The notes under the pieces: generated by a model | The model's input: the letters and a program-made list of their open reading frames with translations, nothing else | What the model was told of the DNA's origin: nothing | Database searches by the model: none | Made by a program: the position numbers and the translations under genes | Shown here: in pieces, positions 2,970 through 24,520 of the stretch | Layout of the letters: every line of letters begins with the position of its first letter | How positions within the stretch are numbered: position 1 is the first letter of the stretch | Assembly: GCA_016935955.1 (NCBI GenBank) | Contig: JAFGPY010000392.1 | Coordinates: 1-27,702 of the forward strand | Source: Planctomycetota bacterium | GTDB lineage: Bacteria; Planctomycetota; Phycisphaerae; FEN-1346; JAACEH01 | DNA: 27,702 bases | Direction: 5' to 3'

Positions 2970-3721
2970 AGCTGGCCTCCCACGGTCCGCTTGACCTGCG
3001 TGGACTCGCGGTACCGATGCGCCAGGGCCAGGGCGTCGTCGCAGTCCTTCGTGGAGAAGGCGTCCACGGCCTTTCCGTCTCGCAACGTGACCACGCGGTC
3101 GGCCCACATGGCGACGCTGGCCTCGTGGGTCACCATGACGATGGTGCGATGCTGTTTGTCGCACAGGTCGCGCAGCGTCTGGCAAAGCTCCTGCCCGGCG
3201 ACGGAATCGAGGCTGCCGGTCGGCTCGTCCAGGAGCAGGATGGCCGGATCGCCGATGAGGGCCCGTGCGATCGCCGTGCGTTGCTGCTCGCCGCCGGAGA
3301 GGGCCTGCGGTTTGTGCGTGCGGCGGTCGGCCATGCCGAGTTGCGTCAGCAGAGCATTGACCTTGGCGTCCAAGCCGTCGGTGCTGACGGCGGGAAGACG
3401 CACGTTCTCTTCCGCACTCAGCACGGGGATGAGGTTGAAGGCCTGAAAGACAATGCCGATCCTCTTGCGGCGGAAGGTCGTGAGCTTGGCGTCGGAGAGT
3501 CTGGACAGGTCCTGCCCTTCAACGAGGACGCGTCCGGCGTCGATGTTCGTGAGGCCGGCCATGGCATGCAGCAGCGTGCTCTTGCCCGAACCCGAAGCGC
3601 CCATGACAGCCACGAACTCGCCGTCCTCGATCTTCAGATTGACGCCGTCCAAGGCACGGACGACGCGGTTTCCCTGGCAGAAGCACTTCTTGACGCCTTG
3701 AACTTCAAGCGGACACACCAT
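2966..3721 (-). CDS. ABC transporter ATPase, LolD/MacB family (unit B)
   Basis: A 251-residue cytoplasmic ATPase that powers the permease overlapping its 3' end. Visible motifs are Walker A GASGSGKST at 41-49, a Q-loop Q in VFQAFNLIP near 93, signature LSGGEQQ at 141-147, Walker B ILLLDEP at 161-167 with PTGSLD after it, and an H-loop His at 199. FQAFNLIP and GEQQR are typical of the LolD/MacB/FtsE group. I chose the ATG at 3719-3721 because GGAGG lies nine bases upstream. An in-frame TTG 18 bp earlier would place that Shine-Dalgarno inside the coding region. The gene lies 85 bp after the upstream permease stop and is probably in the same operon. Confidence 0.92.
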   Translation of the reverse strand: MVCPLEVQGVKKCFCQGNRVVRALDGVNLKIEDGEFVAVMGASGSGKSTLLHAMAGLTNIDAGRVLVEGQDLSRLSDAKLTTFRRKRIGIVFQAFNLIPVLSAEENVRLPAVSTDGLDAKVNALLTQLGMADRRTHKPQALSGGEQQRTAIARALIGDPAILLLDEPTGSLDSVAGQELCQTLRDLCDKQHRTIVMVTHEASVAMWADRVVTLRDGKAVDAFSTKDCDDALALAHRYRESTQVKRTVGGQL

Positions 3722-3806
3722 GAACAGGAACCTCCACAATGGGCTTCAACGACTTCTCATGCTTACGTCGTGAGACGTTCGGCAACAGAGGGCGGAGCGC
3801 ACGGCG

Positions 3807-6596
3807 TCATGCGGCCAACCGTCCTCCCTGGATGTACTTCAACGGTTCCCTGGTCGCGGCGTGGATGGCCGGGATGATTCCCGCCACGATGCACAGACCG
3901 AAGGCCAGCGCAAATCCGATGGCCAGGTACGCCCACGGCAGGACCAGTGGCGGCGTGTGGCCGCCGAAGAAGAAGAACAGCGTGCACAGCCGCGTGCCGC
4001 ACCACGCCAGGCCGATGCCTGCCACCAGGCTCAGCATGCATGCGGCCCCGCAGATCATGATCGACTCGCCGAGAATGAGCCGCAACAGTTGCCCGCCCGT
4101 CAGGCCGACGCCGCGCAGCACGCCGAATTGCCAGAAACGGCTGCGGACCGAGGCCACGATGGTGTTGAACACAGCCAGCGACGAGATGCATAGCGTGATC
4201 AACGGCAACCACGTAAGCGCCCAGATGACGTCGTTGGCCCGGCGGTAGAGCATGTTGAGCACTTCCTCGCGGTCGGTCACCTTGACGTACTGGCTTCCGA
4301 CCGACGTCCGGCCGACCTGCGGCAAATCAACTTCGATGCCGGCACCGCGGCGGGCCAGAGGCTCCAGTTGCTTCTGAATCTGCTTGCCCGTGATGCCCTT
4401 CTCGACGTTGGCCCAGAAGTAGCTGACGCGATCCAGGGCGAAGTCGGCCCGGGCCTGCTCGTAGTCCACGAAGATCATGGCCAGGGCCCGGCCGGCGCGG
4501 CGGCGAGTCTCGGAGAATTTCGTCAGCCAGTTCCAGCCCGGCACCGAGGCGACGCCGACAATGGTGTAGCTGACCTGACGCCCGGGGACGTTCGGAACCT
4601 GGACGCTGAACGAGTCGCCCATCTTCAGGCCGGTCTGCGTGCAGAAGTGGTCGGGCACGACGCAGCCGTGCCCCGCGGCCATGCCCCGTGCGGCCTCGGC
4701 CGGCGTGCCTTCGATGAAGTCCAGATCGAACAGCGGGCGATCGTCGCCGAAAGTCCGCCGCGGATCCACGCCCATCACCATCAGATGCTGCTGCTGGGCG
4801 TCGATGTGGGCGAACGCCGGCGAAGCCAGCATCTCGTCGGTCAATCGCGGCTGCTCGACGGCCATGGGCAGGCACTCGCCGGCCTTGATGCCGGACGCGG
4901 CCTGGGCCTCGGCCACCGCGCTGTCGGGCAGGCCGGCGGGCAGGACGGCGATCAGCATCCGTGGCAGGCCCTCGGTCGGCGTGAAGGGCACGAGCATCGA
5001 GTAGCCCCAGACCAAGCTGGTGATGAACAGGGCCAGGCCGATTGACAGGGCGATGGTTGTGCCGGTGGTCCGCCACAGGTTGCCCGAGAGCTGCTGGCGC
5101 AGGAATCGCCGGTCGAGCCGCAGCTCCCAGGCCACCAGCGGGCCGAAGAGCTTCTCGGCGACCACCACGGCCAGCGGGGTGATCAGAACGAAGCCGAGGA
5201 TCATGGCCAGGCTGCCGACAAGCGGCGTGCCGAAACCGCGCGGACCCCAACCCCAGAAGTGGGCCAGCGCCGAGCGAACGCCCTCGTTGCTACGAGCCAG
5301 GACGATGATCGCCGGGTTGACGGCGACGAGGATCGCACCGGCCAGGACCATGGTCCGGGGGAACGCTCCGGGTCGCGGCGCGCCCTGGCCGCCGAGGATG
5401 TCAACAGGATTGATGCGCCAGGTCTGCCAGGCCGGAAGAATCGCCGCCGCCAAAGCTCCGATGAGCGAGGCCACGAGCGAGATCTGCACAACCGACCTGC
5501 CCAGTGGTGCGGCCGAGAACATGCTCGACCGGAACATGGCCATGTGGCCGGACAGGAGGTGCCCGACGACCAGGAATCCCTTGATCAGCACCAGTCCGAT
5601 CGCCCAGCCCGCAGTGGCGAAGAGCAGCGACTCGAGCACGACCATCAGAATCAGTTGGAGCCGCGACAAGGCCAGGGCTCGCAGGATGGCGAACTGCCGG
5701 ATTCGCTCGCGGACGTTGGTGCTCAGGGTGACGAAGACGATGAACAGCGCCGCCAGGAAAGCCAGGATCGTGGCGTTGGCGAAAAGCATCTGCTGCATGC
5801 TTCCGGGCGGGGCGCCCATCGGGTCGTCGTTCTGGGCCTTCAGCAGACGCAGGGTGGCTTCGGGCTGAGCGGCGGCGAGCTCCTCCTGCCAGGCCTGAGC
5901 GAATTCCTGGGCCGCTTCCGGATCTTTCAGGACGATGCAGAGGGTGCTTGGGCGATCGCCGTAACCGTTAAGCGTCTCGGCCGTAGCCAGCGAGATGAAC
6001 ACGTCGGCCAGGTGTGCCGGGGGCATCCTCCGAACGCCGGGCACCATGGCGGGAGGACCGGGAACAACTCCCACCACCTTGAGCGTCACCTCGTCGCCCA
6101 TCCCGGCGATGATCAGCTCGTCGCCGATCTTCAGTCGCATGCGCTGCTTGAACTGCTCGCCGATGACCGCCTCGTTCGGCTCGTCGCCGAGCCAGCGGCC
6201 TTCGGTGATTTCTTGCGGCGGTTCCTTGGCTCCCGTGCCGATGGTCGTCGTGCCGCCGAACGGGCCGCGAGCGGGAGGCGCTTCGGGCTCGATCTGACGA
6301 ACGCGGGTTCTCACGGCGGCATCGATCTCCGCCACGGCGTCGTCGCCGCGGAGGGCCTCGATGATGGTCGGGTCGAGCTGCATGCCGCGGAAGTCTTTCG
6401 GCGTGATCACCGCGTCGAAGCGACCCTGCTGCTTCGACGCGTCGTCGACCTGCGACCGAATGACCGTGAAGCCCCGCAGGTTCCAGGCCACCAAGCTGAC
6501 CGACACGGCGATGCCCAACAGGGTGACCAGCGTGCGGAACCGGTGCTGGACGTTCGGCCCGATCACGAGCCGCAACAGAACGGAGAGCCTCTTCAT
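3807..6596 (-). CDS. ABC transporter permease, FtsX/MacB fold, two-domain (unit A)
   Basis: A 929-residue inner-membrane permease with the same plan as unit B. It has a membrane segment at about 22-40, a large extracytoplasmic domain, a first FtsX block near 275-400 (NVRERIRQFAILRALALSR), a middle membrane region, a second extracytoplasmic domain with GHGCVVPDHF and YTIVGVASVPGW, and a C-terminal FtsX block (FWQFGVLRGVGLTGGQ). The start ATG overlaps the ATPase stop (ATGA) and has GGAGG seven bases upstream, inside the ATPase 3' end. It would form a dimeric or heterodimeric transporter with the neighbouring ATPase. Similarity to the second permease suggests a tandem duplication of the whole unit. 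Substrate unknown. Confidence 0.9.
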   Translation of the reverse strand: MKRLSVLLRLVIGPNVQHRFRTLVTLLGIAVSVSLVAWNLRGFTVIRSQVDDASKQQGRFDAVITPKDFRGMQLDPTIIEALRGDDAVAEIDAAVRTRVRQIEPEAPPARGPFGGTTTIGTGAKEPPQEITEGRWLGDEPNEAVIGEQFKQRMRLKIGDELIIAGMGDEVTLKVVGVVPGPPAMVPGVRRMPPAHLADVFISLATAETLNGYGDRPSTLCIVLKDPEAAQEFAQAWQEELAAAQPEATLRLLKAQNDDPMGAPPGSMQQMLFANATILAFLAALFIVFVTLSTNVRERIRQFAILRALALSRLQLILMVVLESLLFATAGWAIGLVLIKGFLVVGHLLSGHMAMFRSSMFSAAPLGRSVVQISLVASLIGALAAAILPAWQTWRINPVDILGGQGAPRPGAFPRTMVLAGAILVAVNPAIIVLARSNEGVRSALAHFWGWGPRGFGTPLVGSLAMILGFVLITPLAVVVAEKLFGPLVAWELRLDRRFLRQQLSGNLWRTTGTTIALSIGLALFITSLVWGYSMLVPFTPTEGLPRMLIAVLPAGLPDSAVAEAQAASGIKAGECLPMAVEQPRLTDEMLASPAFAHIDAQQQHLMVMGVDPRRTFGDDRPLFDLDFIEGTPAEAARGMAAGHGCVVPDHFCTQTGLKMGDSFSVQVPNVPGRQVSYTIVGVASVPGWNWLTKFSETRRRAGRALAMIFVDYEQARADFALDRVSYFWANVEKGITGKQIQKQLEPLARRGAGIEVDLPQVGRTSVGSQYVKVTDREEVLNMLYRRANDVIWALTWLPLITLCISSLAVFNTIVASVRSRFWQFGVLRGVGLTGGQLLRLILGESIMICGAACMLSLVAGIGLAWCGTRLCTLFFFFGGHTPPLVLPWAYLAIGFALAFGLCIVAGIIPAIHAATREPLKYIQGGRLAA

Positions 6597-7369
6597 CCGC
6601 GCACCTCCTGGCAGTCGGCTTCCATGAGGTCGATGTAGCGCTGGGCCAGGTCCTGCACCGTGGCGTATTCGCTACGGTCGGTCTGGCCGACAAGTTGACC
6701 GTCTTTGAGAATCAGGATCTTCTCCGCCGCGAAAGCCACGGCCGGGTTGTGAGTCACCATGAGGACGGTGGTCCCGTTCTCCAGGCAGAGTTTGCGGAAC
6801 GTGTCGCAGAGCCTGCGTCCGTTGACCGAGTCGAGGCTGCCGGTCGGCTCGTCGGCCAGGACGATCGAAGGGTTCGTCACCAGGGCCCGGGCGATAGCGA
6901 ACCGTTGTTGTTCGCCGCCGCTCATGGAGTCCGGTCGCCGGGTGCGGACGCCCGACAGGCCGAGGTGCTCGACCAGGCGGGCCACGCCGTCGCTGCCGTT
7001 GCTCCGTCCTCCCAGCAGCATCGGCAGGGCGATGTTCTCCTCACCGGTCAGCGTAGGAATGAGATTGAAGGCCTGGAACACCAGGCCGATGTTCTTCCGG
7101 CGGAACACGGTGCGGGCGCGCTCGCTCAACGCGTGAATGTCCGTGCCGCCGATGCGGATCGTTCCCTCGTCCGGCCGCGTCAGACCGGCCACCAGGTGCA
7201 GCAACGTGCTCTTGCCCGAACCCGAGGCGCCCATGACTGCGGCGAAGTCGCCGTGCGAGAGGGTCAGGCTGACATCGCGAACAGCCTCCACGACCCCATG
7301 GCCGGGATGGAACCGCTTGCAGAGACCGTCGATCTGGAGGATGGGGTCCGATGAGGTCGCACGCTTCAT
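6593..7369 (-). CDS. ABC transporter ATPase, LolD/MacB family (unit A)
   Basis: A 258-residue ATPase and the first gene of the four-gene minus-strand ABC series. Walker A GASGSGKST is at 47-55, VFQAFNLIPT surrounds the Q-loop near 99, signature MSGGEQQ is at 149-155, Walker B is ILADEP-like (VLADEP at 170-175), and the H-loop His is at 207. The frame is open upstream, but I take the ATG at 7367-7369, which has AAGGA eight bases upstream. The 3' end overlaps the permease start by four bases. It differs from its paralogue at 2966-3721 mainly at the two ends. No clear promoter was identified upstream. Confidence 0.92.
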   Translation of the reverse strand: MKRATSSDPILQIDGLCKRFHPGHGVVEAVRDVSLTLSHGDFAAVMGASGSGKSTLLHLVAGLTRPDEGTIRIGGTDIHALSERARTVFRRKNIGLVFQAFNLIPTLTGEENIALPMLLGGRSNGSDGVARLVEHLGLSGVRTRRPDSMSGGEQQRFAIARALVTNPSIVLADEPTGSLDSVNGRRLCDTFRKLCLENGTTVLMVTHNPAVAFAAEKILILKDGQLVGQTDRSEYATVQDLAQRYIDLMEADCQEVRG

Positions 7370-8031
7370 GTGCACAGTCCTTTCGATATTGACCACGTGA
7401 GTACCGATAGCACCGTTAACCAACTCGCAGCCGGGTGGCCGCGACCTGTGTCAGTCTGCAGACACGACCGGCAGGCAGGCACGTGCCTTGGTGGGGCCGC
7501 GAGGTTCGCCCCGGCTGCTTTGGCAATCGCCGGACGGCCAGAATCAAAAACAACCGTGCAAACCGCATACCATGGACCGGCTGTCACCCCATGGAGAACA
7601 GGACCGACCTGCCCGGTTGTCGTCGGCCGCGGCTTGGCCGGGAGCGGTGCCCAGAAGGCTCGCCCATTCAGAGAGTGGTGCTGTCACTGCGCGTGTTGGT
7701 GCAACACCTTGTGTGATAAGCGGTTGTGCTGGATTCGGGCGCCGTTGCCGTGGTGCTGTCGGTGAGACTGCACTGGACTGCGCGAGCCCATGTTGTGGCT
7801 GTGTAACATGTGTTGATCACAGTCTTTGGGAGCGAAATCCGCGTCCCATGGTCTCCGCATTGATAGACGACCGCACACAATTGGTCTGTCACGCCCAATC
7901 CGTGCACAGGTTTTGTGCATTTTCGGCATCAATGCTTGTCGTGTGTATAGTGCGGGAACCATCACAAGTGCCGACGACGCCGGGATACGCCGGAAGTGGC
8001 AGGAGGGCGGAAACTGTGCGTCGTCTCGGTC
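7370..8031. other. Intergenic region, no supported gene
   Basis: About 660 bp between the ABC series and the nikR stop. Several open frames cross it, but all are low-complexity, Cys/Arg/Pro-rich translations with no recognisable motif or ribosome-binding site. Structure seen: an inverted repeat TGCACA-N5-TGTGCA at 7903-7919, and a short hairpin GTGTTG-GTG-CAACAC near 7695. The motif GTGCACAG occurs at about 7903 and again just upstream of the ABC ATPase start. It may hold the promoter of the ABC series, but none is clear enough to mark. Confidence 0.5.
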
Positions 8032-8448
8032 TTAGCGCAATTGCCGGCCGGTGGTACTTGCAGCTAACTTGGCGTGCAGAACGCCCTTTTCGCGCTGAAG
8101 GCGGTTGGTCAGTTCCCGAATGTCCTTGCCCCGGCCGCGGACCATGATCATCTCCGCGCAGAGGTGCTCGTCCAGGTGGACGTGGGTCGTAGCCAGAACC
8201 TTGCCGGTGAAATGATGCTGCTGGTGAATCAGCCGCTCGGTCAGTCCCCGGGTGTGATGGTCGTAGATGAGGGAAATCGTGCCCAGCAGGGTCCCTGGGC
8301 TCTCCCACTCCTGCCCCACCAGGTGATCCCGTACCAGGTCGCGGACGAACTCCGAGCGGTTCCCGTAGCCGCTCTCGGCCACCATGGTCTCCAACTTCTC
8401 GAAGAGCGATCTGGGAATGGACAGACTGACGCGGACCAATTCGGACAT
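8032..8448 (-). CDS. nikR: Nickel-responsive ribbon-helix-helix regulator NikR
   Basis: A 138-residue protein of normal NikR length. The N-terminal ribbon-helix-helix DNA-binding domain begins VRVSLSIPRSLFEKLE and continues with GNRSEFVRDLVRDHL. The C-terminal ACT-like domain holds the high-affinity nickel set. H78, H89, H91 and C97 have the same spacing as H76, H87, H89 and C95 of E. coli NikR (visible as THVHLDEHLC). With nickel bound, NikR tetramers bind an inverted repeat and repress nickel uptake genes. The start is the ATG with GGGAG six bases upstream; the frame extends 14 codons further without support. The gene is divergent from the uptake operon at 8641, with a NikR-type operator between them. 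One cannot exclude cobalt sensing, but the ligand set argues for nickel. Confidence 0.93.
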   Translation of the reverse strand: MSELVRVSLSIPRSLFEKLETMVAESGYGNRSEFVRDLVRDHLVGQEWESPGTLLGTISLIYDHHTRGLTERLIHQQHHFTGKVLATTHVHLDEHLCAEMIMVRGRGKDIRELTNRLQREKGVLHAKLAASTTGRQLR

Positions 8449-8591: not shown

Positions 8592-8618
8592 GTATTACAC
8601 TTGCCATATTCGTAATAC
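8592..8618. promoter_or_regulatory. Putative NikR operator GTATTAC-N13-GTAATAC
   Basis: A perfect 7+7 inverted repeat separated by 13 bases (half-sites 8592-8598 and 8612-8618), 22 bases before the start of the plus-strand uptake operon and divergent to nikR. NikR operators are widely spaced inverted repeats: GTATGA-N16-TCATAC in E. coli, and GTGTTAC/GTAACAC types in other phyla. The geometry (27 bp overall against 28 bp) and sequence fit. The position suits repression of the 8641 operon when nickel is replete. The GTATTAC or GTAATAC arms may overlap the core promoter, which I could not define separately. Confidence 0.75.
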
Positions 8619-8640
8619 GACCCGGGGGACTTACGCGGCG

Positions 8641-9264
8641 ATGATCGTGTACCGTCTGAATTCTGGCTGCGGTCGGCCTGCCTTCACGGTGGTCGAGCTG
8701 CTGATTGTCGTGGCCATCGTGGCCGTGCTGCTGTCGTTGCTGGTTCCGGTGTGCGCCACGGGGCTGGCCATGGCCCGTCAGGCGGCGTGCCTGACGAACC
8801 TTCGCTGCCTGGCCACGGCCGTCAAGCTCTACACCGGGGACCACAGGGGCATGTATCCCCGGGCTTGGACGAACGACTCGTGCCGCTGGATGGACCTGCT
8901 CAAGCCGTACGTGGACAAGTCGGCGGAAGTCTATTGCTGTCCGAGCGACGATGAGCGTGTGCCGCTGGCGTGGGACGACGAGATCATCATGAGCTACGGC
9001 ATCAACTGTTTCCGCTTCAAGGACGACACCCATTGTTTCTGGTACGGCGTGTCGACCATCGGCGTGAAACGGCCCGGGGAAACGATCCTGCTGGCCGATT
9101 GCACGCCGGGCACGTACTACGTCGGCGGGGGTAAGAGGTTCCGGGAGCCGGTATCCGGCGTGGACTATCGACACGTCGACGAGAGTTTCAATGCCGTCTT
9201 TTGTGACGGTCACGCGGAGAACCTGAAGACAACGACGCAGGAGGACTGGGACGCTTCACAGTAG
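8641..9264 (+). CDS. Cys-rich type II pseudopilin-like protein (prepilin N-terminus, H-X10-DG C-terminus)
   Basis: A 207-residue protein. A short leader ends in A14, followed by the methylation/cleavage segment FTVVELLIVVAIVAVLLSLL (15-34) with the conserved Glu at mature position 5. This is a class III prepilin signal processed by a prepilin peptidase. The C-terminus carries RHVDESFNAVFCDGH, a variant of the H-X9-DG motif common in planctomycete and verrucomicrobial pseudopilins. There are 11 cysteines, ten of them after the cleavage site (including CC at 99-100 and C188 beside the DG), which is unusual for this family. GGGGGA lies upstream but is about 11 bases away, so the start is moderately certain. 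It is the first gene after the NikR box, which suggests a role in nickel-limited growth. Confidence 0.85.
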   Translation: MIVYRLNSGCGRPAFTVVELLIVVAIVAVLLSLLVPVCATGLAMARQAACLTNLRCLATAVKLYTGDHRGMYPRAWTNDSCRWMDLLKPYVDKSAEVYCCPSDDERVPLAWDDEIIMSYGINCFRFKDDTHCFWYGVSTIGVKRPGETILLADCTPGTYYVGGGKRFREPVSGVDYRHVDESFNAVFCDGHAENLKTTTQEDWDASQ

Positions 9265-9326
9265 ATGGGTCTCGAACGTCGAGCCGCACGGCGTCCCGAC
9301 GCAACACAGACAGGGAGGGTGAAAGA

Positions 9327-10346
9327 ATGGCAAGGGGATTGATGGTCTGGGCACTTATCGCGGCGGTTCTGGGGGCGACGGCCGGGCAGGCCTATGCGGG
9401 CTTCTCGCTGTCGGGGTACGACCTTCAGGTTATCCAGTCGCAGCAGGGGATTGAGCACGGCGGGGCCAGTTTCCTGACCAACGCCCTGTGGGGCTCCAGC
9501 GGTCTGGACACGCCCATCAGCACCGGCTTTGTGCTGCCGTCGTGCGACGGCGTGGTCACCTCGCGGCTCTACCTGGACATCTGGGGCGGCACCAATGCCT
9601 ATACCGCCCAGGTGACCGGGACCCTGAACGGCACGAGCCTGGGCGTGGTGAATCTCGGCGGCACCGACAATGCCGGCGCCACGTACAGCACGACGGAAAC
9701 GTCCGTCTACGGTTCGGGCTACGGCGTGTGGCAGACGGCCTACAGCAACATCGCCTCCCTTCTTTACACCGACGGAACGGCCAATGAACTGAGCTTCACG
9801 ATCACCGATCCGAACGACGACTTCGACGGCCGCGTCTATTCGGCCACGCTCGTGACGATCTACACCGACTCGTCGATCACCGGCAGCCTGGACTACTACC
9901 TGGCCGAGGCCGACGGCACGCTTCGCAAGACGCCGGGCAGCACCGGATCGCCCGCCGAAATGACGTTGTCGCTGAACGACTTGGATGTTCTCAACGTGAC
10001 CTCGGCGACCTACACGGCCAGCTACACCCACGGCAACGCAGGGCAGATGGACCAGATCTACTTCAACGACACCGCCCTGGGCGACGCGTCGAATGACGTG
10101 GCCGTCGGAGCCATGGGTATCTACGGACCGGATGTCCCGACGTTCGACGTGACGGACCTGCTGGCGGTCGATTCCGCGGTTCGCTACAGCGTCCTGGAGA
10201 GCGAACTGGGCACCGGTTGCGAGAGCAGTCTGCGGGCCAACATCGGCCTGCTGACGGTCAATCATGCCGTGCCGGAGCCCGCGACGATAGGCTTTCTGGC
10301 CATCGGCCTGGCGGCGTTGGCGTCCAGGAGGGCGGCCGGGCGGTGA
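9327..10346 (+). CDS. Secreted PEP-CTERM protein, DUF3344-like
   Basis: A 339-residue exported protein. The signal peptide ends near AYA at residues 22-24. The middle is Thr/Ser/Gly/Asp-rich and beta-sheet-like. It contains SRLYLDIWGGTNAYT, FDGRVYSATLVTIYTD, a YYLAEADGTL motif and GQMDQIYFNDTALGD. I recall this pattern from DUF3344-type surface proteins of methanogens and some bacteria; this is from memory, not a search. The last 25 residues (315-339) form a PEP-CTERM sorting signal: VPEP, a hydrophobic helix, then SRR. It would be cut by an exosortase or archaeosortase-like enzyme and retained at the surface. AGGGAGG lies eight bases before the ATG. Its stop overlaps the GTG of the binding-protein gene, so it belongs to the uptake operon. 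It may bind the imported metal complex at the surface (inference). Confidence 0.85.
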   Translation: MARGLMVWALIAAVLGATAGQAYAGFSLSGYDLQVIQSQQGIEHGGASFLTNALWGSSGLDTPISTGFVLPSCDGVVTSRLYLDIWGGTNAYTAQVTGTLNGTSLGVVNLGGTDNAGATYSTTETSVYGSGYGVWQTAYSNIASLLYTDGTANELSFTITDPNDDFDGRVYSATLVTIYTDSSITGSLDYYLAEADGTLRKTPGSTGSPAEMTLSLNDLDVLNVTSATYTASYTHGNAGQMDQIYFNDTALGDASNDVAVGAMGIYGPDVPTFDVTDLLAVDSAVRYSVLESELGTGCESSLRANIGLLTVNHAVPEPATIGFLAIGLAALASRRAAGR

Positions 10347-11284
10347 GTCGCAAGAGGCAGATCCTCCTCGTGGCACTTGCGGGGCTGCTTGTCGTGGCGA
10401 GCCTGGCATGGGTGGCCGCGCGGATTTCGCCAGAGGGCGACCCCGGTATGGCCGCGCGGCGGCACGTTACCGATATGACGGGACGCGACGTGGCGATTCC
10501 CTCCTGCCCGCGCCGCATCCTGAGCCTCTGTACCTCGGCGACGGACACGATGGTGTGGATCGGTGCCGGCGATCTGTTGGCGGCCATCGACGAGTATGGT
10601 TGCACGGTGCCCGGAGTCGAACGGGCCGAGGTCATCGGCAAAGGCAGCGCCGTTTCGCAGGAGGCGATCCTCTCCCGACGAATCGACCTGGCCTTCATCT
10701 GGTGGTACCAGGACGATGCGGCCGCGATGCTGGAGAGGTTGTCCGTGCCGGTCGTGCGTGTCCGGTCGGCCCGTGCCGCCGAGGTGCCGGCCATGATCCG
10801 GCTCGTGGGCCGGTGCGTTGGCTACGGCGAGACGGCTGACCGGGAGGCCGCACGGGTCGAGCAGTTCCTGGAACTGGCGGCGACGGTGCCCGACGCTGCG
10901 GCGACCACGCGGCCGCGGGTCTACCTGGAAATGTACGGCGCCTACAAGACCCTCGGCCGCGACACCTACTGCGACGACCTGATCCGCCTGGCCGGCGGCG
11001 ACAACGTTGCGGCCGAGGCGACGGGCAGTGTGTTGCTGTCGGCCGAGCGGCTGATTCATTCGGCCCCGGACGCCGTTCTGCTCGTTGAGGATTTCGGTGA
11101 CGCCGCGACGATTGCCGCGCGGCCGGGCATGGCCGAACTTGCAGCCGTGCGCCACGGACGCGTCGTCGCGCTGGAGCGCCGCTGGCTCATCGCCGGCCCG
11201 GCGATGCCCGAGGCCGTACAACGTATCCGCGAGTTGCTCGCCACGGCGGCCGCGGCTGAAAGGACTGCCCATGGCCTTCCATAA
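10343..11284 (+). CDS. Periplasmic binding protein of a FecBCD/BtuFCD-type ABC importer
   Basis: A 313-residue protein starting at GTG 10343, which overlaps the previous stop (GTGA) with GGAGG about 11 bases upstream. N-terminal residues 7-26 are a membrane anchor or uncleaved signal with no lipobox Cys. The rest matches the class III binding-protein fold (PF01497 type). The core is VTDMTGRDVAIPSCPRRILS, TDTMVWIGAGDLLAAIDEYG and AILSRRIDLAFIWW, and the far lobe carries YCDDLIRLAGGDNVA and AVRHGRVVALE. The usual substrates are ferric siderophores, heme, cobalamin or, in some bacteria, nickel chelates. Its place behind a NikR box favours nickel or a nickel complex. Cysteines at 55, 63 and 87 are not general family features and could take part in metal handling (inference). 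Confidence 0.88.
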   Translation: MSRKRQILLVALAGLLVVASLAWVAARISPEGDPGMAARRHVTDMTGRDVAIPSCPRRILSLCTSATDTMVWIGAGDLLAAIDEYGCTVPGVERAEVIGKGSAVSQEAILSRRIDLAFIWWYQDDAAAMLERLSVPVVRVRSARAAEVPAMIRLVGRCVGYGETADREAARVEQFLELAATVPDAAATTRPRVYLEMYGAYKTLGRDTYCDDLIRLAGGDNVAAEATGSVLLSAERLIHSAPDAVLLVEDFGDAATIAARPGMAELAAVRHGRVVALERRWLIAGPAMPEAVQRIRELLATAAAAERTAHGLP

Positions 11285-12008
11285 GATCACCTACCATCCC
11301 ACATACCGTTTCGCGACTGTGCACAACTACGGCTGCACGTTCCGCTGTCCCATATGCAGCTACAAACTGCGCAGCGGGGCGGACGGCGCGCCGGGACACG
11401 CGTATCCGAAGCCCGAGCGGTTCCTGAGCCTCCGGGCAATCAAGGAGACCCTGTGCTCGGTTGCCCCTGAGAAGGTCTACTTCATGGGCGGCGAGCCCAC
11501 CGTGGCCAAGGAGTTGCCGGACCTGCTCGACTTCGCGCGAAACGCTCTGGCCGCCACGACCTATCTCGGCCACACCAACGGCAGCCGGTTGCCGCTGGCC
11601 AATCTGAACGGCGCCAACGTCGGGTTGAAGGCCTGGGACGAGTCGGTGCACCAGGCTTACACCGGGCGACCGAAGCGGCCGATCTTCGACAACTTCGCGG
11701 CCGCCGTCGACGCGGGGCTCGAGATGAAAGCCAACGTCGTCTACGTGCCGGGGTTGGTCGATCTCGATCAGGTCGAGGCCATCGCCGCGTGGCTGGCCGG
11801 GCTCAACGCCGACATCCCGTTCCACGTCATGGGCTACATTCCTGTCCCGGGCCAGCCGTATTCGCGGCCGACCGACGAGCAGATGAGTGAGGCGGTGGCT
11901 GCTTGTCGCAGGCACCTTGCTCACGTGGCCGCGTCTCACCTGACGAGCCAGGAGGCCCTGGACCTGTCGGCTCGCGACGATCGGTTCCAGGTGAAACAGA
12001 TTGCTTAG
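11271..12008 (+). CDS. Radical SAM protein, PflA-like, embedded in the uptake operon
   Basis: A 245-residue protein with the canonical CX3CX2C cluster motif (C22, C26, C29, in GCTFRCPICSYK) that ligates the 4Fe-4S cluster. It also has a GGEP motif at 73-76 for SAM binding. The rest looks like a partial TIM barrel of the pyruvate-formate-lyase-activase group. No auxiliary cluster or SPASM Cys motif is visible in the C-terminal part. The ATG at 11271 overlaps the binding-protein gene by 14 bases and has AAAGGA seven bases upstream, so translation is coupled. The permease gene begins 12 bases after its stop. Such an enzyme is not a standard part of an ABC importer. It may modify a chelator, a protein partner or the imported ligand. 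Reaction unknown. Confidence 0.88.
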   Translation: MAFHKITYHPTYRFATVHNYGCTFRCPICSYKLRSGADGAPGHAYPKPERFLSLRAIKETLCSVAPEKVYFMGGEPTVAKELPDLLDFARNALAATTYLGHTNGSRLPLANLNGANVGLKAWDESVHQAYTGRPKRPIFDNFAAAVDAGLEMKANVVYVPGLVDLDQVEAIAAWLAGLNADIPFHVMGYIPVPGQPYSRPTDEQMSEAVAACRRHLAHVAASHLTSQEALDLSARDDRFQVKQIA

Positions 12009-12020
12009 CGGACCCGTGCC

Positions 12021-13049
12021 ATGTCCACCTGTCCTCATCCCGTTCGGCCCTCTCGCCTGATCGCCGCACTGCTGGCGCTCACGGTGCTTGCCGCGCTGGC
12101 GGCTCTGGCGGTTGGTGATACGTGGATTTCCCCTGTCCAGGCCGTGCGGCTCTGTTGGCAGGCGTTTTGCGATTCCGCCTGCCAGGATGCCGACGCGCGG
12201 ATTCTCGTGTCGATTCGCCTGCCGCGCATCGTCATGGCCTTGATGGTCGGCGCGGCCATGGGCCTGGCGGGCGTCGCGTCGCAGACGCTCTTCCGCAATC
12301 CGCTGGCCAGTCCCTACGTGGTCGGCGTCTCAAGCGGCGCAGCCGCCGGAGCGGTCTTCGGATTGCTCGTGGTGGGCAAGACGATCGGTTTCGCCGCACT
12401 GCCGGTCTTCAGCGTCGCCAGCGGCCTGGCCGTCATGGCGGCCGTCTATAGCCTGGCTCGGCGCGGTGGCCACTTCGGACAATCGCTGCTCCTGGCCGGC
12501 ATTGCCGTCAGCGCCTTCTGTTCCGCCCTCACGGCCGTGGCCCTCTACCTGGCCGGCGAACGGCTCCAGACGCTCGTCTTCTGGCTCATGGGCGGACTGT
12601 GGCAGTCGAGTTGGCGCGACGCGCTGGTGATGGTTCCCGTGACCGGCGTCGCGGGTCTGGCCCTCGTCTACCTGGCGCCGGCCATGGACGTTGCGCTTGT
12701 GGGCGAGCGGTCGGCCCGCGACCTGGGCGTCGGCGTGCGGCGGCTCCAGCTCCGGCTCCTCGTCATCGTCGCGGTCGTTACCTCGGTGGCTGTCAGTCTG
12801 ACCGGAATCATTGGCTTCGTCGGCCTGATCGTGCCGCACTTTCTGCGACTCTTGTGCGGTGCCGGCCATCGCGGACTGGTGCCGGCATCGGCGCTGGGCG
12901 GCGCGCTGCTTCTGCTGGTCACCGACACGCTGGCGCGTACCGTCGCCGCACCGGCCGAGGTTCCTGTGGGTATTCTCACCGCCCTGGTCGGAGCCCCGGC
13001 CTTTCTGTGGCTCCTCCAGCGGCGAAACCGAGGGCGGCGCGACGCATGA
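12021..13049 (+). CDS. FecCD/BtuC-type ABC importer permease
   Basis: A 342-residue, roughly ten-helix inner-membrane protein. Family motifs are RLPRI at 66-70, GLAGVASQTLFRNPLASP from 81, GVSSGAAAG from 102, GFVGLIVPHFLR at 265-276 (cytoplasmic coupling region) and a closing PAEVPVGILTALVGAPAF. Length and motif order are normal for FecC/FecD/BtuC. Only one permease gene is present, so it would act as a homodimer, as BtuC does. The stop overlaps the ATPase start (ATGA). The Shine-Dalgarno is weak, consistent with coupling to the radical SAM gene 12 bases upstream. Confidence 0.93.
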   Translation: MSTCPHPVRPSRLIAALLALTVLAALAALAVGDTWISPVQAVRLCWQAFCDSACQDADARILVSIRLPRIVMALMVGAAMGLAGVASQTLFRNPLASPYVVGVSSGAAAGAVFGLLVVGKTIGFAALPVFSVASGLAVMAAVYSLARRGGHFGQSLLLAGIAVSAFCSALTAVALYLAGERLQTLVFWLMGGLWQSSWRDALVMVPVTGVAGLALVYLAPAMDVALVGERSARDLGVGVRRLQLRLLVIVAVVTSVAVSLTGIIGFVGLIVPHFLRLLCGAGHRGLVPASALGGALLLLVTDTLARTVAAPAEVPVGILTALVGAPAFLWLLQRRNRGRRDA

Positions 13050-13843
13050 ACCTGAAAGCCGACGCTCTCGTCTTCGCCTATCGTTCGGACCGTCCGGTGC
13101 TTCGCGGCGTGACGCTGGACGTTGTCCCCGGCCGCGTGACGGCCCTCTTCGGCCTCAATGGGTGCGGCAAGAGCACGCTGCTGCGATGCCTCAACGGTGC
13201 CTTGCGGCCGCAGGCGGGGCGCGTGCTGCTGGACGGGCGGCCGGTCAACAGCATGACGCCGCGCGAGGTCGCCTGTCACGTTGCCGTGGTGCCGCAGGAT
13301 ACGCCGACCGACGTTCCGTTCACCGCAACCGAGATGGTGATGCTCGGCCGCTACGCCCGTAGCGGCGCCTGGGGCGAGCAGTCCGTCCAGGACCACACCG
13401 TGGTGCGCCAGTGCCTGGAGCGGGTCGAGGCCGCCGACCTGGCCGACCGATGGTTCTCGGAACTGAGCGGCGGCGAGCGTCAGCGGGTCATCATCGCCCG
13501 CGCCCTGGCCCAGCAGGGCAGGATCCTTCTGCTCGACGAGCCGGCCTCGCATCTGGACATCGCCCATCAGTTGGAACTCTATCGCCAGGTGCGACGCCTC
13601 GCCGGCGAAGGGCAGGCCGTGCTGATGGTCTGCCACGACCTCTTTCTGGCTCCGCTGTACGTTGACACCGCCATCCTGATGACCGCGGGCCGAATCCTGG
13701 CTGCAGGCACGCCGCGGGAAGTCCTGACGCCGGCCCATCTCGAGACAGCCTTCGGCATTCGGGCTGAGGCGGCGTGGAAACCCGATGGGACCGTGCAAAT
13801 GCAATTGCCGTCGTCGCCCGACCGCGCCCACGGGGGCGAATGA
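13046..13843 (+). CDS. FecE/BtuD-type ABC importer ATPase
   Basis: A 265-residue ATPase. Walker A is GLNGCGKST at 36-44, the Q-loop is VVPQDTP near 83, the signature LSGGERQ is at 140-146, Walker B LLLDEP is at 161-166 followed by ASHLDIAHQ, and the H-loop His is at 197 (VCHDLF). The D-loop wording and ALAQ...LLLDEPASHLD are typical of the iron-chelate/cobalamin/heme importer ATPases (FhuC, FecE, BtuD). The true start is the ATG overlapping the permease stop; a longer open frame upstream is a shadow of the permease gene. It completes a FecBCD-type importer and is the last gene of the operon, followed by a 119-bp gap. Confidence 0.93.
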   Translation: MNLKADALVFAYRSDRPVLRGVTLDVVPGRVTALFGLNGCGKSTLLRCLNGALRPQAGRVLLDGRPVNSMTPREVACHVAVVPQDTPTDVPFTATEMVMLGRYARSGAWGEQSVQDHTVVRQCLERVEAADLADRWFSELSGGERQRVIIARALAQQGRILLLDEPASHLDIAHQLELYRQVRRLAGEGQAVLMVCHDLFLAPLYVDTAILMTAGRILAAGTPREVLTPAHLETAFGIRAEAAWKPDGTVQMQLPSSPDRAHGGE

Positions 13844-13962: not shown

Positions 13963-16281
13963 ATGATGATGCGTAATGCCGGTCGACTCGTGACGGTCTG
14001 GGCCATCGGCCTGGGCCTTCTCGTTGCGGGATGCCAGCCGCAGGTGCAGCAAGACAGCCCGACGCTGACGGAACGGGACCTCATCTTCGGTCCCTACGTC
14101 AGTGCGGTGTCTCCCTCGGGTGCGAAGGTGCACTGGATCGCGCCGGCAGGGGTGAAAGGCTCATGTCGCCTGTTGGGCGACACTTCAGATGCCGCCGTGA
14201 AGGTCGAGACCTCGGCCATCACCGGTCGCAAGGAGATCCGCCACACGGCGACGATCACCGGCCTGGCACCTGACCGGTGGCACCGTTACGAGGTCGGCTC
14301 CGGCGGGGAGCGGGTCGAAGGCTCGTTCCGCACGCCCCCGGCCGCCGGCAGCAAAGAGGCCTTCCACTTCGTCATCACCGGCGACACACAGAGCAAGCCG
14401 CTTCGCATTCGCGCCGTGGCCGAGGCGATCGCCGGCGAGGCGCCGGCCTTCATTGTTCATACGGGCGACTACTGCAACAACACCGCCGACTGGAACCAGC
14501 TGGAGGCCCAGTTCTTCGAACCCTGGCGCGACCTGCTGCACAGGACTCCCGTCTGGCCGGCCCGCGGCAACCACGAGTACGGCATCCAGCCCTTCGCCGA
14601 CATCTTTGCCCGGTCGCCGACGCAGCCGTGGTACTCCTTCGACTACGCCAACCTCCACGTCGTCATTCTCGACCAGTGGAACCTCGAAGACAGCGACGAA
14701 ATGGAGCCGGAGCGGATGACCGCTATGGCCGAGTGGCTCGACCGCGACTTGGCCGCAGTCAAGGGACGTGCCGACTGGATCATCGTTGCCGGGCACCAGC
14801 AGATGTTCAACGTCGCGGGCCACGGGAGCACGTGGGGACACGAGCAGATCCTTCCGGTTCTCTATAAGCACGGGGTGGACCTCGTCGTCAGCGGACACTC
14901 GCACCTGTACGAGCGTTTCGTGCCCATCGGCCCGCCCGATGCCAAGCCGATTCATTTTCTGGTCTCCGGCGGTGCCGGGGGACCCAACTATCCGTCCGTG
15001 CCCAGCCCGATCCTGGTGCGGAGCCATGCCGCCCCACACTATTGCCTCTATCACATCGAGGGCGACCGGCTCGACCTGACGGTGAGGGGTTCGAGCGGCA
15101 CGGTCATCGACACGATGACGCTCACCAAAACGGGTGGCTCGCTCTCGCCGAACATCATGGCCGCCGCCATCACGCCCGAGGACGCCATGCGGCTGCTGAA
15201 GATCTACAAGGGCCTCGGCGTCAACGTCACCGAGCGTCCCGTGGCCGGCCGCGCCATGATCTGCACGCTGTCGCCGCGGCGGTTTCCAGCGGGCAGCAAG
15301 GTGACCGTCGGCACCGACCCCGGCAGCCCGTGGGCCGTCGAGGAAGCCACCTTCATCGCACCTGAGGAAGAGCCGCAGAGTGCCGCGGCGGAACCGACGG
15401 CGACGAATGAGAACGAGGATGGGCAGGAGGAGAATAGGCCTGCGCCGTGGCTCCTGCGGGCCAAGCCGCCGGCGGACGTTCTGCTGGGCGGCCACGGGTT
15501 CAGCCCCGAACTGTCGGTGGCCATCCGTCTGGAGTACAAGGGCCGCACGTGGTTCTGTCCCTCGGTGCCTGTCGGCCTGCACGAGGAGAGCGTTCGCCGC
15601 CTCGCGCCGCAGCCGGTGGTGGTCGACGTGCCTCCGGCACCGGCCGTTGTCATGACACAACGGTCCAGTTCGGGAGGCATCGTCCTGGATGGCGGGCTGG
15701 ACGACTGGAAGGACGTTCCCTTTCTGCGTCTGCCATCGACTGGCACCGCCAGCCGCACCATGAAACTGGCTTGGACGCCGGAGGCGATCTACGGTGCGGT
15801 CGTGGTCGAGCAGGGAGCGATTCACGTTGACGGCGAACTCCCCTGGAATGCCGACAGCCTGGAGATCAACCTGGAGCCCGACGCCCTGCGGCGGCTCAAC
15901 ATGCCGTCGCGTGGCCCGACCGCGAAACTCTTCTTTTGGCCTGAGCCCGGAAGCGATGGCGGCAAGGCTTCGTACAAGCGCCAGGGCGGTCGGTTGCCCG
16001 GAGGCTCCGTGCAGGCGGTCTGGCAGAAGACGCCGACCGGCTACACGATGGAGTTCCGCATCTCGGCCCGAGCCCTGACTGTGAGGCGCGCAGGCGCAGC
16101 CCGACCGGAGGCCGGCGCACCTCCGCATGAGACGCCGTTGGCCGCGGGCCGCACGGTCGGCCTGGACCTTATCCTGCGGCACGACGGCGAAGTGATCGAA
16201 CGCCTTGCCGACACGCGCGGCCTTCGCTCCACGTGGGGCTCGCCGATCTACTGGGGACAGATCCGGCTGTCGGGGCAGTAG
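13963..16281 (+). CDS. Lipoprotein metallophosphoesterase (purple acid phosphatase-like) with CBM9-like C-terminus
   Basis: A 772-residue exported lipoprotein; the lipobox LVAGC gives a lipidated Cys24. A fibronectin-III-like domain of the purple-acid-phosphatase type spans about 40-125 (AKVHWIAPAG; TITGLAPDRWHRYEV). It is followed by a calcineurin-like metallophosphoesterase domain: GDTQ (D141), HTGDY (D169), GNHEY (202-206), AGHQQ (277-280) and SGHSHLYER (310-318). These supply the two-metal site. An acidic linker (467-491) leads to a further domain and, from about 572, a CBM9-like module (LDGGLDDWKDVPF). GGAGG sits eight bases before the first of three ATG codons. It is probably a surface or periplasmic phosphatase that scavenges phosphate near polysaccharide (inference). 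It is 119 bp beyond the importer operon and has its own ribosome-binding site. Confidence 0.88.
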   Translation: MMMRNAGRLVTVWAIGLGLLVAGCQPQVQQDSPTLTERDLIFGPYVSAVSPSGAKVHWIAPAGVKGSCRLLGDTSDAAVKVETSAITGRKEIRHTATITGLAPDRWHRYEVGSGGERVEGSFRTPPAAGSKEAFHFVITGDTQSKPLRIRAVAEAIAGEAPAFIVHTGDYCNNTADWNQLEAQFFEPWRDLLHRTPVWPARGNHEYGIQPFADIFARSPTQPWYSFDYANLHVVILDQWNLEDSDEMEPERMTAMAEWLDRDLAAVKGRADWIIVAGHQQMFNVAGHGSTWGHEQILPVLYKHGVDLVVSGHSHLYERFVPIGPPDAKPIHFLVSGGAGGPNYPSVPSPILVRSHAAPHYCLYHIEGDRLDLTVRGSSGTVIDTMTLTKTGGSLSPNIMAAAITPEDAMRLLKIYKGLGVNVTERPVAGRAMICTLSPRRFPAGSKVTVGTDPGSPWAVEEATFIAPEEEPQSAAAEPTATNENEDGQEENRPAPWLLRAKPPADVLLGGHGFSPELSVAIRLEYKGRTWFCPSVPVGLHEESVRRLAPQPVVVDVPPAPAVVMTQRSSSGGIVLDGGLDDWKDVPFLRLPSTGTASRTMKLAWTPEAIYGAVVVEQGAIHVDGELPWNADSLEINLEPDALRRLNMPSRGPTAKLFFWPEPGSDGGKASYKRQGGRLPGGSVQAVWQKTPTGYTMEFRISARALTVRRAGAARPEAGAPPHETPLAAGRTVGLDLILRHDGEVIERLADTRGLRSTWGSPIYWGQIRLSGQ

Positions 16282-23094: not shown

Positions 23095-24372
23095 CTACTT
23101 GGGGGCGCACTCTCCCATCTTGCAGGCCTTGGCGATCTGTGCCGGCGACATCCGCATCTTGTCCCCCAGGGCCTGGTCGATGGTGATCATATTGCCGATC
23201 TCCGCCGGATTCTGGTCGGCCCATTTCTTCAGGTTCTCCAGGCTGGTGAAGAACCCCTGGTGGAAGCATCCGGCCGAGATGTAGGAGCCGTCGGCCGTCC
23301 TCCTCTTGCCGAACCAGGCCACAGCCGTCGCCGGCTCGATGGACTGGATGTAGCCGCCCAGGGTCCTGACGACAATCATCTCGCCGGTCAGGCGGTCCCG
23401 CTGATGGACCTCGATGCTCTTGCCGGTCCGTGCCGCCACGCCCATGGCGCAGTGCGAACAGCAGCCCCAACTGTGGACGCCGTCGATCTTCACCATCGCC
23501 GCATCCTCCGCGTAGACCGCCCGGTCGCAGAAGCCGCAGCGGGGGGCCAGTTCCTTCTGCTTCAAAACCTCGTAGCCGACGAGGCTGCCGCCCGCGGTCT
23601 TCTGTTCGGCTTCGGCTGCGACCCGGTCGGCGAAGGCCTTGATCGTCGGGCGTCCGGTCTTCTCTTCCAAGCCGTACAGGTAGACGGCCGTCGCCATGGG
23701 TATCAGCTTGCCCGTAGTCCAGTCTGTGACCGATGCCCTGGCGTCGAAGCCGGTCTTGTCCTGCGTCAGGCACGAGTACATGATGAACCAGCAGTGCGGC
23801 GAGCAGAGTTTCACGTCGCCCTTGTCGGTCTTGATGGCCACGGCAGTCTTCGCATCGACGTCGCCGTCGCAAAACTGACAGACCTTATCTTTCGGCCGGT
23901 CGTCGGCCCCGGCAGGCTCCAGGCGGCTGAAGGCCGGCTTCAGGGACTCCGCCGCGAAAGCGTAGCCCAGTTCGCGGAACTTGTCGAGGATGCCGTAACG
24001 CGAGATGAAGCCCTCGTGCCGCCAGAGTTCCTTGCCCTCGGTATCCAGGAACACCTGTGTCGGGATGAGCCTGATGCCGTACTGCCGGGCCAGGGCAACG
24101 TTCTCCCGTTTGCCCACGTCGGCGAACTCCACCGCGAGTTTGCCGGCGAACTCCTTCTTTATCTCTTCCAGCGCGGGCGCCATCAGCTTGCAGGGAATGC
24201 ACTCGGTGGAACCCAGGTCGACGAGCTTCGGCACCCCGGTCCGCTCCACGGCCGGCTTGCCCGGCGCCGGCTCGGCGGCCGACGACGACTCGCCCTGGAA
24301 CTGCCAGGCAATCACTGTTGCCATGCCTGCGGCCAGTATTGTCATGAGCCCCACTCGCAACACTCGAGCCAT
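23095..24372 (-). CDS. Exported thioredoxin fused to a Cys-rich NosL/TRASH-like double domain
   Basis: A 425-residue protein with three parts. A signal anchor spans about 5-24. A thioredoxin domain (about 45-137) has the active site CIPC at 58-61 and cis-Pro in IPTQVF. A long C-terminal region has paired Cys motifs: C165/C168 (CQFC), C190/C194 (CSPHC), C279/C282 (CGFC), C304/C305/C308 (CCSHC), C369 and C417/C422. The two CxxC...CxxxC units look like duplicated metal-binding modules related to NosL or TRASH domains. It probably delivers or receives electrons and metal(loid) ions at the membrane surface. AAGGAG lies eight bases before the ATG. Its neighbours are a small thioredoxin and two ArsF-type proteins, all thiol proteins of one operon. 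A specific substrate is not known. Confidence 0.8.
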   Translation of the reverse strand: MARVLRVGLMTILAAGMATVIAWQFQGESSSAAEPAPGKPAVERTGVPKLVDLGSTECIPCKLMAPALEEIKKEFAGKLAVEFADVGKRENVALARQYGIRLIPTQVFLDTEGKELWRHEGFISRYGILDKFRELGYAFAAESLKPAFSRLEPAGADDRPKDKVCQFCDGDVDAKTAVAIKTDKGDVKLCSPHCWFIMYSCLTQDKTGFDARASVTDWTTGKLIPMATAVYLYGLEEKTGRPTIKAFADRVAAEAEQKTAGGSLVGYEVLKQKELAPRCGFCDRAVYAEDAAMVKIDGVHSWGCCSHCAMGVAARTGKSIEVHQRDRLTGEMIVVRTLGGYIQSIEPATAVAWFGKRRTADGSYISAGCFHQGFFTSLENLKKWADQNPAEIGNMITIDQALGDKMRMSPAQIAKACKMGECAPK

Positions 24373-24520
24373 GTGTGTCACTCCTTCTGATTTCCAGATT
24401 CTCGCCGTCCACCGCGCCGCCTGCCACAGGACCAGAGTCCGGCCCGGCACGGTCCACATGGCGGCGTCGTTACGGCTTTCCCGCCACCTCCTCCGCACGG
24501 ACATTGACCCAACAGGTCAT

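Follow-up and report, generated by a model that had tools for sequence, protein, structure and literature searches.

A predicted NikR-controlled operon uniting a FecBCD-type importer with a radical SAM enzyme in a planctomycete

Genes and operator at the locus

The window (the whole stretch of 27,702 nucleotides analysed here, from contig JAFGPY010000392.1 of a Planctomycetota bacterium) carries six same-strand genes that form an operon, divergent from a nikR gene and separated from it by a NikR-type operator. The operon encodes a pilin-like protein, a DUF3344 protein, a FecBCD-type importer and a radical S-adenosylmethionine (SAM) enzyme (rSAM). The gene order given by a first-pass annotation (pilin, PEP-CTERM protein, binding protein, rSAM, permease, ATPase) was confirmed, and the overlapping or near-touching gene ends that it described corresponded to gaps of +62, -4, -14, +12 and -4 bases. 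The divergent nikR across the box from the operon had been overlooked there. The features of the locus were as follows.

8032..8448, minus strand: nikR, nickel-responsive ribbon-helix-helix repressor, 138 aa (PF08753 and PF01402, NCBIfam NikR equivalog, alignment with solved NikR)
8592..8618, no strand: NikR-type operator GTATTAC-N13-GTAATAC, perfect palindrome, between nikR and the operon
8641..9264, plus strand: type IV pilin-like protein with a C-terminal H-x10-DG motif (TIGR02532)
9327..10346, plus strand: secreted DUF3344 protein with a PEP-CTERM sorting signal (PF11824, PF07589)
10343..11284, plus strand: FecB/BtuF/CeuE-type substrate-binding protein, GTG start (PF01497)
11271..12008, plus strand: rSAM enzyme, 245 aa, CxxxCxxC at C22/C26/C29 (PF04055)
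12021..13049, plus strand: FecCD/BtuC-type permease (PF01032, E 7e-87)
13046..13843, plus strand: ATP-binding cassette (ABC) ATPase, FecE/BtuD type (PF00005)

The nikR gene was assigned an ATG start at 8448, with the longest open reading frame (ORF) reaching 8490. Its product has the C-terminal nickel-binding domain (PF08753 with 96 bits against a cut-off of 22; NCBIfam NikR equivalog over cut-off), and its best solved relative was 2bj1, a nickel responsive regulator presumably from P. horikoshii (E 2e-34). In the alignment with solved NikR proteins (H..HVH..C) the window protein keeps the H, HVH and C positions, which we take to be the nickel-site residues. The perfect NikR-like repeat reported ahead of the operon by the first-pass annotation was found at 8592-8618 with zero mismatches; it was the sole match in the window at ≤3 mismatches, against a shuffle mean of 0.06. 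It is an inverted repeat upstream of the operon with the 27-28 bp length of NikR operators, and its sequence closely resembles the NikR signal of delta-proteobacteria, GTGTTAC-[N13/14]-GTAACAC, for which the listed sites include GTaTTAC-[N13]-GTAACAC (excerpt of PMC545781). A promoter and terminator scan of the window produced nothing useful, and searches of the window and 19 relatives detected no cobalamin riboswitch.

The operon encodes a complete set of FecBCD-type parts (PF01497 binding protein, PF01032 permease, one ABC ATPase) instead of an energy-coupling factor (ECF) importer of the NikMNQO type (CbiM/NikM, CbiQ, CbiO), a candidate that was rejected. The AlphaFold 2 model of the binding protein had a pLDDT (predicted local distance difference test) of 92.8 and matched BtuF, the Ni-His form of H. 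pylori CeuE, heme-binding proteins and a molybdate-binding protein about equally well in fold. Among 27 sequences of the binding protein no His or Cys was invariant, which suggests binding of a chelate rather than a bare ion; the invariant positions were D83, E107, W120, E196, Y198, E235 and R279. The best NCBIfam models for the ATPase were TIGR03873 and those of heme and corrinoid ATPases, each below its cut-off among the 25 matches listed.

The pilin-like protein scored 19.2 bits with TIGR02532 (cut-off 16.3) and had no Pfam match. All 29 operon pilins share E19, C50, C100, R177, H178, D189 and H191, with the motif running from H178 over ten residues to D189. A hidden Markov model (HMM) of the operon pilins ranked them above the other pilins of the loci, a comparison that is circular because the model was built from those same pilins.

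NikR-type boxes among relatives

A scan with one genome per species produced 58 loci with the rSAM gene (L-numbers denote these and further surveyed loci and G-numbers the genomes carrying them, both being labels of this analysis). At a tolerance of ≤2 mismatches, the window box matched 26 sites in the 777,045 bases of the 58 loci and the window, compared to 0-1 in each of five shuffles, and most of the 26 stand a short way ahead of the pilin or rSAM gene. After the archaeal sites had been seen, the pattern set was broadened to half-site variants and applied to the region from -450 to +150 of each operon start; 13 of the 58 loci were left out because they were truncated or had rSAM downstream of other importer genes. 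Among the testable operons, a box was present in 32 of 36 from genomes with NikR and in 1 of 10 from genomes without detected NikR (Fisher p 5.9e-6, which is optimistic because the sequences are related). For L046 the NikR status was borrowed from L041, which has the same isolate name. Scanned with the identical pattern set, 455 other gene starts produced no window at ≤0 mismatches, 2 at ≤1 and 16 at ≤2.

Of 18 Thermoplasmatota loci, 16 have a site (≤2 mismatches) at a distance of 22-72 bases ahead of the rSAM start used. For four archaeal genomes (G009, G015, G593 and G644) the sole zero-mismatch GTAACAC-N13-GTAATAM site in the genome is the one at rSAM. Many of the archaeal boxes (L031-L053) read GTAACAC-N13-GTAATAC/A, with half-sites that resemble near direct repeats, unlike the palindrome of the window. 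The same box class was found in related archaea upstream of CbiM/CbiQ/CbiO (L141, L143) and of an SBP_bac_5/BPD/ABC importer (L142). Since CbiM/Q/O transporters handle cobalt in addition to nickel, L141 and L143 alone do not name the metal.

NikR was detected in 47 of 60 rSAM genomes, combined from tallies of 13 of 15 and 34 of 46 genomes with G013 counted in both; the 60 include three genomes bearing distant rSAM homologs, all three with NikR. For comparison, 20 NikR loci of planctomycetes without rSAM were drawn from 75 NikR genomes. They had an ATPase closest to the ECF query (11 loci), a CbiQ match (5), a TonB-receptor match (2) and a binding protein with FecCD (1, L067), and none had pilin, DUF3344 or rSAM at E≤1e-4. 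Overall, the claim of the first-pass annotation that the operon is NikR-controlled gained strong support from the nikR gene, the box and the boxes at relatives for the importer-plus-rSAM unit, and nickel control is well supported as a prediction from sequence.

Conservation of gene order

The context of rSAM was counted over the 58 loci, with contigs ending early scored as misses. The binding protein was directly upstream in 29 loci and FecCD directly downstream in 28; both were present in 27 and the ATPase as well in 26, while a pilin preceded the binding protein in 25 and DUF3344 occurred in 9. The order of binding protein, rSAM and FecCD, followed by the ATPase, was also held in three Thermoplasmata genomes (the class of G005) at 34-36% rSAM identity, with pilin and DUF3344 absent. 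A gene order not conserved in relatives, which the first-pass annotation had named as a refuting result, was not what was observed. One of these three distant archaeal operons (L140) adjoins a [NiFe]-hydrogenase. Comparison of the window with 19.5 kb of the closest genome (L147) produced protein matches only for nikR, the six genes and antisense frames, which argues for a compact cassette. In L004 the binding protein, FecCD and ATPase precede rSAM.

Other importers accompany rSAM elsewhere. Syntrophaceae carry, in this order, genes for TonB, a TonB receptor, a fused CbiO, CbiQ, a membrane protein of ~210 residues and rSAM as the last, with NikR on the same contig piece (identified by Pfam in L037 and by cluster in L040 and L047; the TonB gene is out of view in L040). 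The ~210-residue protein had no Pfam match at E≤1e-3, hence no recognisable CbiM/NikM, and may be the ECF S component. An NMT1-type ABC importer stands beside the boxed rSAM in three Methanomassiliicoccales loci, upstream of it in L039 (629-3073) and L045 (1573-4995) and divergent from it in L041 (5002-8001), where the box lies between both units. Neighbour genes in Thermoplasmatota were identified in part only and some contigs are short. Downstream of rSAM in six Methanomassiliicoccales loci (L031, L033, L036, L039, L041 and L045) come genes for a methyltransferase, a CobW/HypB-type GTPase and a product lacking any Pfam match, as seen from clusters, with Pfam for L039 only.

The locus of Victivallis vadensis (L025) keeps the pilin, binding protein and rSAM and is possibly a decaying or re-wired version. 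FecCD or ATPase next to rSAM and a box were not found at the locus, and NikR, [NiFe]-hydrogenase and HypA were undetected in V. vadensis.

The radical SAM enzyme and its bearers

The rSAM enzyme belongs to a distinct family of ~245 residues, and its CxxxCxxC motif and PF04055 domain place it in the rSAM superfamily. A protein search with the window enzyme returned 510 proteins at E≤0.001, and the best 120 of the 510 were all ≥67% identical. In an alignment of 57 members (56 loci and the window, with L046 and L056 left out) 36 positions were invariant, C22, C26 and C29 among them. Grouped by record title, the 58 loci span Planctomycetota, Lentisphaerota, Verrucomicrobiota, Thermodesulfobacteriota (Smithella and other Syntrophaceae), Myxococcota, Armatimonadota and Thermoplasmatota. 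Archaeal and bacterial sequences were interleaved in the rSAM tree, with the window sister to L001 (support 100/99).

The AlphaFold 2 model of the enzyme had a pLDDT of 95.2. The nearest fold was the pyruvate formate-lyase (PFL)-activating enzyme (template modelling score 0.70, 14% identity), and activases and NifB were among the near folds. An activase of this type was rejected as an identification, the likeness being in fold only; a glycyl-radical enzyme gene was not found in the operon or the scanned neighbours, unlinked partners being unsought.

A sister family of about 30-39% identity includes members from Methanobacterium, Methanobrevibacter and Caldilineae. Its proteins P0182, P0192, P0211 and P0214 came from Methanobacterium, Methanobrevibacter and other Methanobacteriaceae, with one cluster present on 234 contigs.

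Nickel is needed by hydrogenases, carbon monoxide dehydrogenase (CODH) and methyl-coenzyme M reductase. Among the 60 rSAM genomes a [NiFe]-hydrogenase match was found in 41 (40 over cut-off), where short matches to PF00374 (positions 1-70) possibly reflect complex I subunits resembling hydrogenase, and HypA was over cut-off in 46. The remaining 19 genomes had no [NiFe]-hydrogenase match, and 13 of these had a LarA-type match over cut-off.

Interpretation and alternatives

The reading that we favour, tentatively and at a little less than an even chance, is nickel-repressed import of an organic nickel chelate followed by opening of the ligand by rSAM in the cell. When nickel is scarce, NikR would leave the box and the operon would be expressed. 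The importer made up of binding protein, FecCD permease and ATPase would then take up an organic nickel complex and not the bare ion, a nickel chelate being a plausible substrate. In the cytoplasm rSAM would break or modify the ligand without oxygen, as ChuW/HutW do for heme, and the freed nickel might pass to [NiFe]-hydrogenase or LarA-type racemases. Capture or passage at the diderm outer envelope might involve the pilin and the DUF3344/PEP-CTERM protein.

The presence of varied importers with one constant enzyme suggests an enzyme acting on a shared imported ligand. The proposal of chelate import and ligand opening was also drawn from HmuW-type iron release, from nickel import by NiuBDE and from a second operon that adjoins the rSAM operon in one relative (L028:121-5392). 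This operon stands behind a perfect GTATTAC-N13-GTAATAC box and encodes a pilin, a binding protein, FecCD, an ATPase and a HemN-type rSAM with HemN_C, for which the best NCBIfam model was ChuW/HutW TIGR04107 (223.8 bits, below the cut-off of 400). The first-pass annotation had proposed that surface proteins capture a nickel chelate and that the rSAM protein makes, matures or dismantles a chelator or partner. NikR control of a conserved importer-rSAM unit was strongly supported; the pilin and DUF3344 proved not to be constant and the archaeal versions lack them. The archaeal lack suggests that both proteins serve diderm envelopes. An outer-envelope role is likely, judging from gene content, because archaeal operons are without both and a TonB receptor replaces them in the Syntrophaceae; surface capture by the two proteins would be one form of it.

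Several observations weigh against the proposal. The tree-corrected test of box and NikR, which omits L046, had too few pairs (5 pairs, mean of 3.8 in agreement, 0 opposed, p 0.125), and a box with ≤1 mismatch was upstream in only one (L138) of the three distant archaeal operons. NikR was not detected in 13 of the 60 rSAM genomes, and within the phylum of V. vadensis (288 genomes) it was present in 8 of 18 genomes with rSAM vs 89 of 270 without (p 0.32). Six of the 19 hydrogenase-less genomes were also without LarA or CODH over cut-off. These absences of NikR and enzymes are weak because many of the genomes are draft assemblies. No importer was recognised beside rSAM in 14 of 18 Thermoplasmatota loci, where neighbours were partly identified. 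Membership of the window enzyme in ChuW/HutW was rejected, TIGR04107 and HemN_C being unlisted at E≤1e-3, and a HutW-like rSAM was found in no scanned locus besides L028, where it is below cut-off.

The constancy of the enzyme among varied importers would also be expected if rSAM made a nickelophore from a common metabolite and the importer recovered the nickel-loaded form, and boxed rSAM genes without a recognised importer would fit a chelator maker. However, the recurring neighbour clusters, as far as identified, revealed neither a conspicuous second biosynthetic gene nor an exporter, and the known parallel, an rSAM enzyme in a metal-chelate uptake operon, is the release enzyme HmuW (excerpt of PMC10404700). 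Nickelophore synthesis was regarded as rather unlikely and ligand opening was placed ahead of it, dismantling being preferred over making. The loci with rSAM directly behind a box and an importer not recognised are also consistent with an enzyme that acts, by modification or repair, on some protein or cofactor required when nickel is limiting, and that shares only its regulation with the importer. The methyltransferase and CobW/HypB-type GTPase beside rSAM in six Methanomassiliicoccales loci and the activases and NifB among the near folds point the same way, but no neighbour cluster was common to all contexts and the tight order of binding protein, rSAM and FecCD survives at 34-36% identity, which makes this explanation improbable.

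The remaining alternatives concern the metal and its carrier. Both the permease and the binding protein show likeness to BtuC, BtuF and heme systems, as they would if the cargo were a corrinoid, heme or iron chelate and regulation by NikR were incidental; this was judged quite improbable given the NikR-type boxes, the linked nikR genes and the absence of a cobalamin riboswitch from the window and the 19 relatives searched. The metal sensed by NikR might also be a different one here, for example zinc or cobalt. A Methanothermobacter nikR homolog adjoins putative zinc importer genes and such a role was suggested for it (excerpt of PMC3087415), and the CbiM/Q/O transporters are not specific to nickel. 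However, the aligned H, HVH and C residues are retained in the window NikR and the lack of a detected cobalamin riboswitch counts against this reading too, so that another metal was considered very improbable.

A more specific form of chelate opening, and a doubtful one, is that the cassette salvages a nickel tetrapyrrole, e.g. coenzyme F430 from dead methanogens. Import would be by FecBCD or TonB/ECF systems, rSAM would open the macrocycle and a dedicated pilin of the Planctomycetes-Verrucomicrobia-Chlamydiae (PVC) group would provide the outer-envelope step. The points behind it are the methanogens and syntrophs among the bearers and the HutW-like enzyme in the parallel boxed operon of one relative. 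If true, this would be an anaerobic nickel counterpart of heme degradation.

Relation to known systems

Heme systems with ChuW, HutW or HmuW are under Fur control and have FecBCD-type heme importers. They resemble the window operon in that an rSAM enzyme is encoded with uptake genes, there releasing the metal from an imported chelate; in the case of HmuW the heme-uptake operon encodes an rSAM that frees iron without oxygen (excerpt of PMC10404700). The difference is that they handle iron and heme and that the window enzyme, without HemN_C and TIGR04107, is of another rSAM family. NiuBDE of Helicobacter pylori is a FecBCD-type ABC importer carrying nickel (excerpt of PMC5140060). The likeness with it, CeuE/FecDE and H. 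mustelae NikH is in the importer type, the window binding-protein fold being tied with CeuE. That paper nowhere uses the word 'radical', whereas the window operon includes rSAM, and the outer-membrane step of NiuBDE is TonB-dependent (PMC5140060, same excerpt), whereas the window operon has the pilin and DUF3344. NikMNQO and NikABCDE share NikR repression through the same box class (excerpt of PMC545781), and their transporter families differ from the FecBCD type of the window.

An rSAM enzyme in NikR-linked nickel uptake was not found in the Creative Commons-licensed literature searched, and excerpts of PMC3087415, PMC7689651 and PMC11591864 name both NikR and radical SAM with no link drawn. 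The parts of the operon are of known kinds, and what appears new is rSAM as a constant member of NikR-boxed loci. Such constancy in Planctomycetota, Lentisphaerota/Verrucomicrobiota, Syntrophaceae, Armatimonadota and Thermoplasmatota would represent a new metal-acquisition step. To our knowledge, little is known of how environmental microbes acquire nickel from organic matter. A cassette spread across several bacterial and archaeal phyla suggests that nickel may be freed from an organic compound under scarcity; a single enzyme, small and well modelled, would make salvage of a nickel chelate or F430 directly testable, and the idea arises of pilins standing in for TonB receptors.

Flanking genes of the window

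A metallophosphatase gene with CBM9 and a sub-threshold purple-acid-phosphatase match (13963-16281, plus strand) begins 119 bases past the operon and is outside the shared neighbour clusters. Beyond nikR, two MacB/FtsX-type permeases and two ABC ATPases (156-7423, minus strand) lie on the strand opposite to the operon. Further downstream, at 23095-24504 and 25219-26760 (both minus strand), MerB (alkylmercury lyase) and thioredoxin domains were found in one ORF with an ArsP_1-type permease nearby, and this stretch is possibly a metal/metalloid resistance region.

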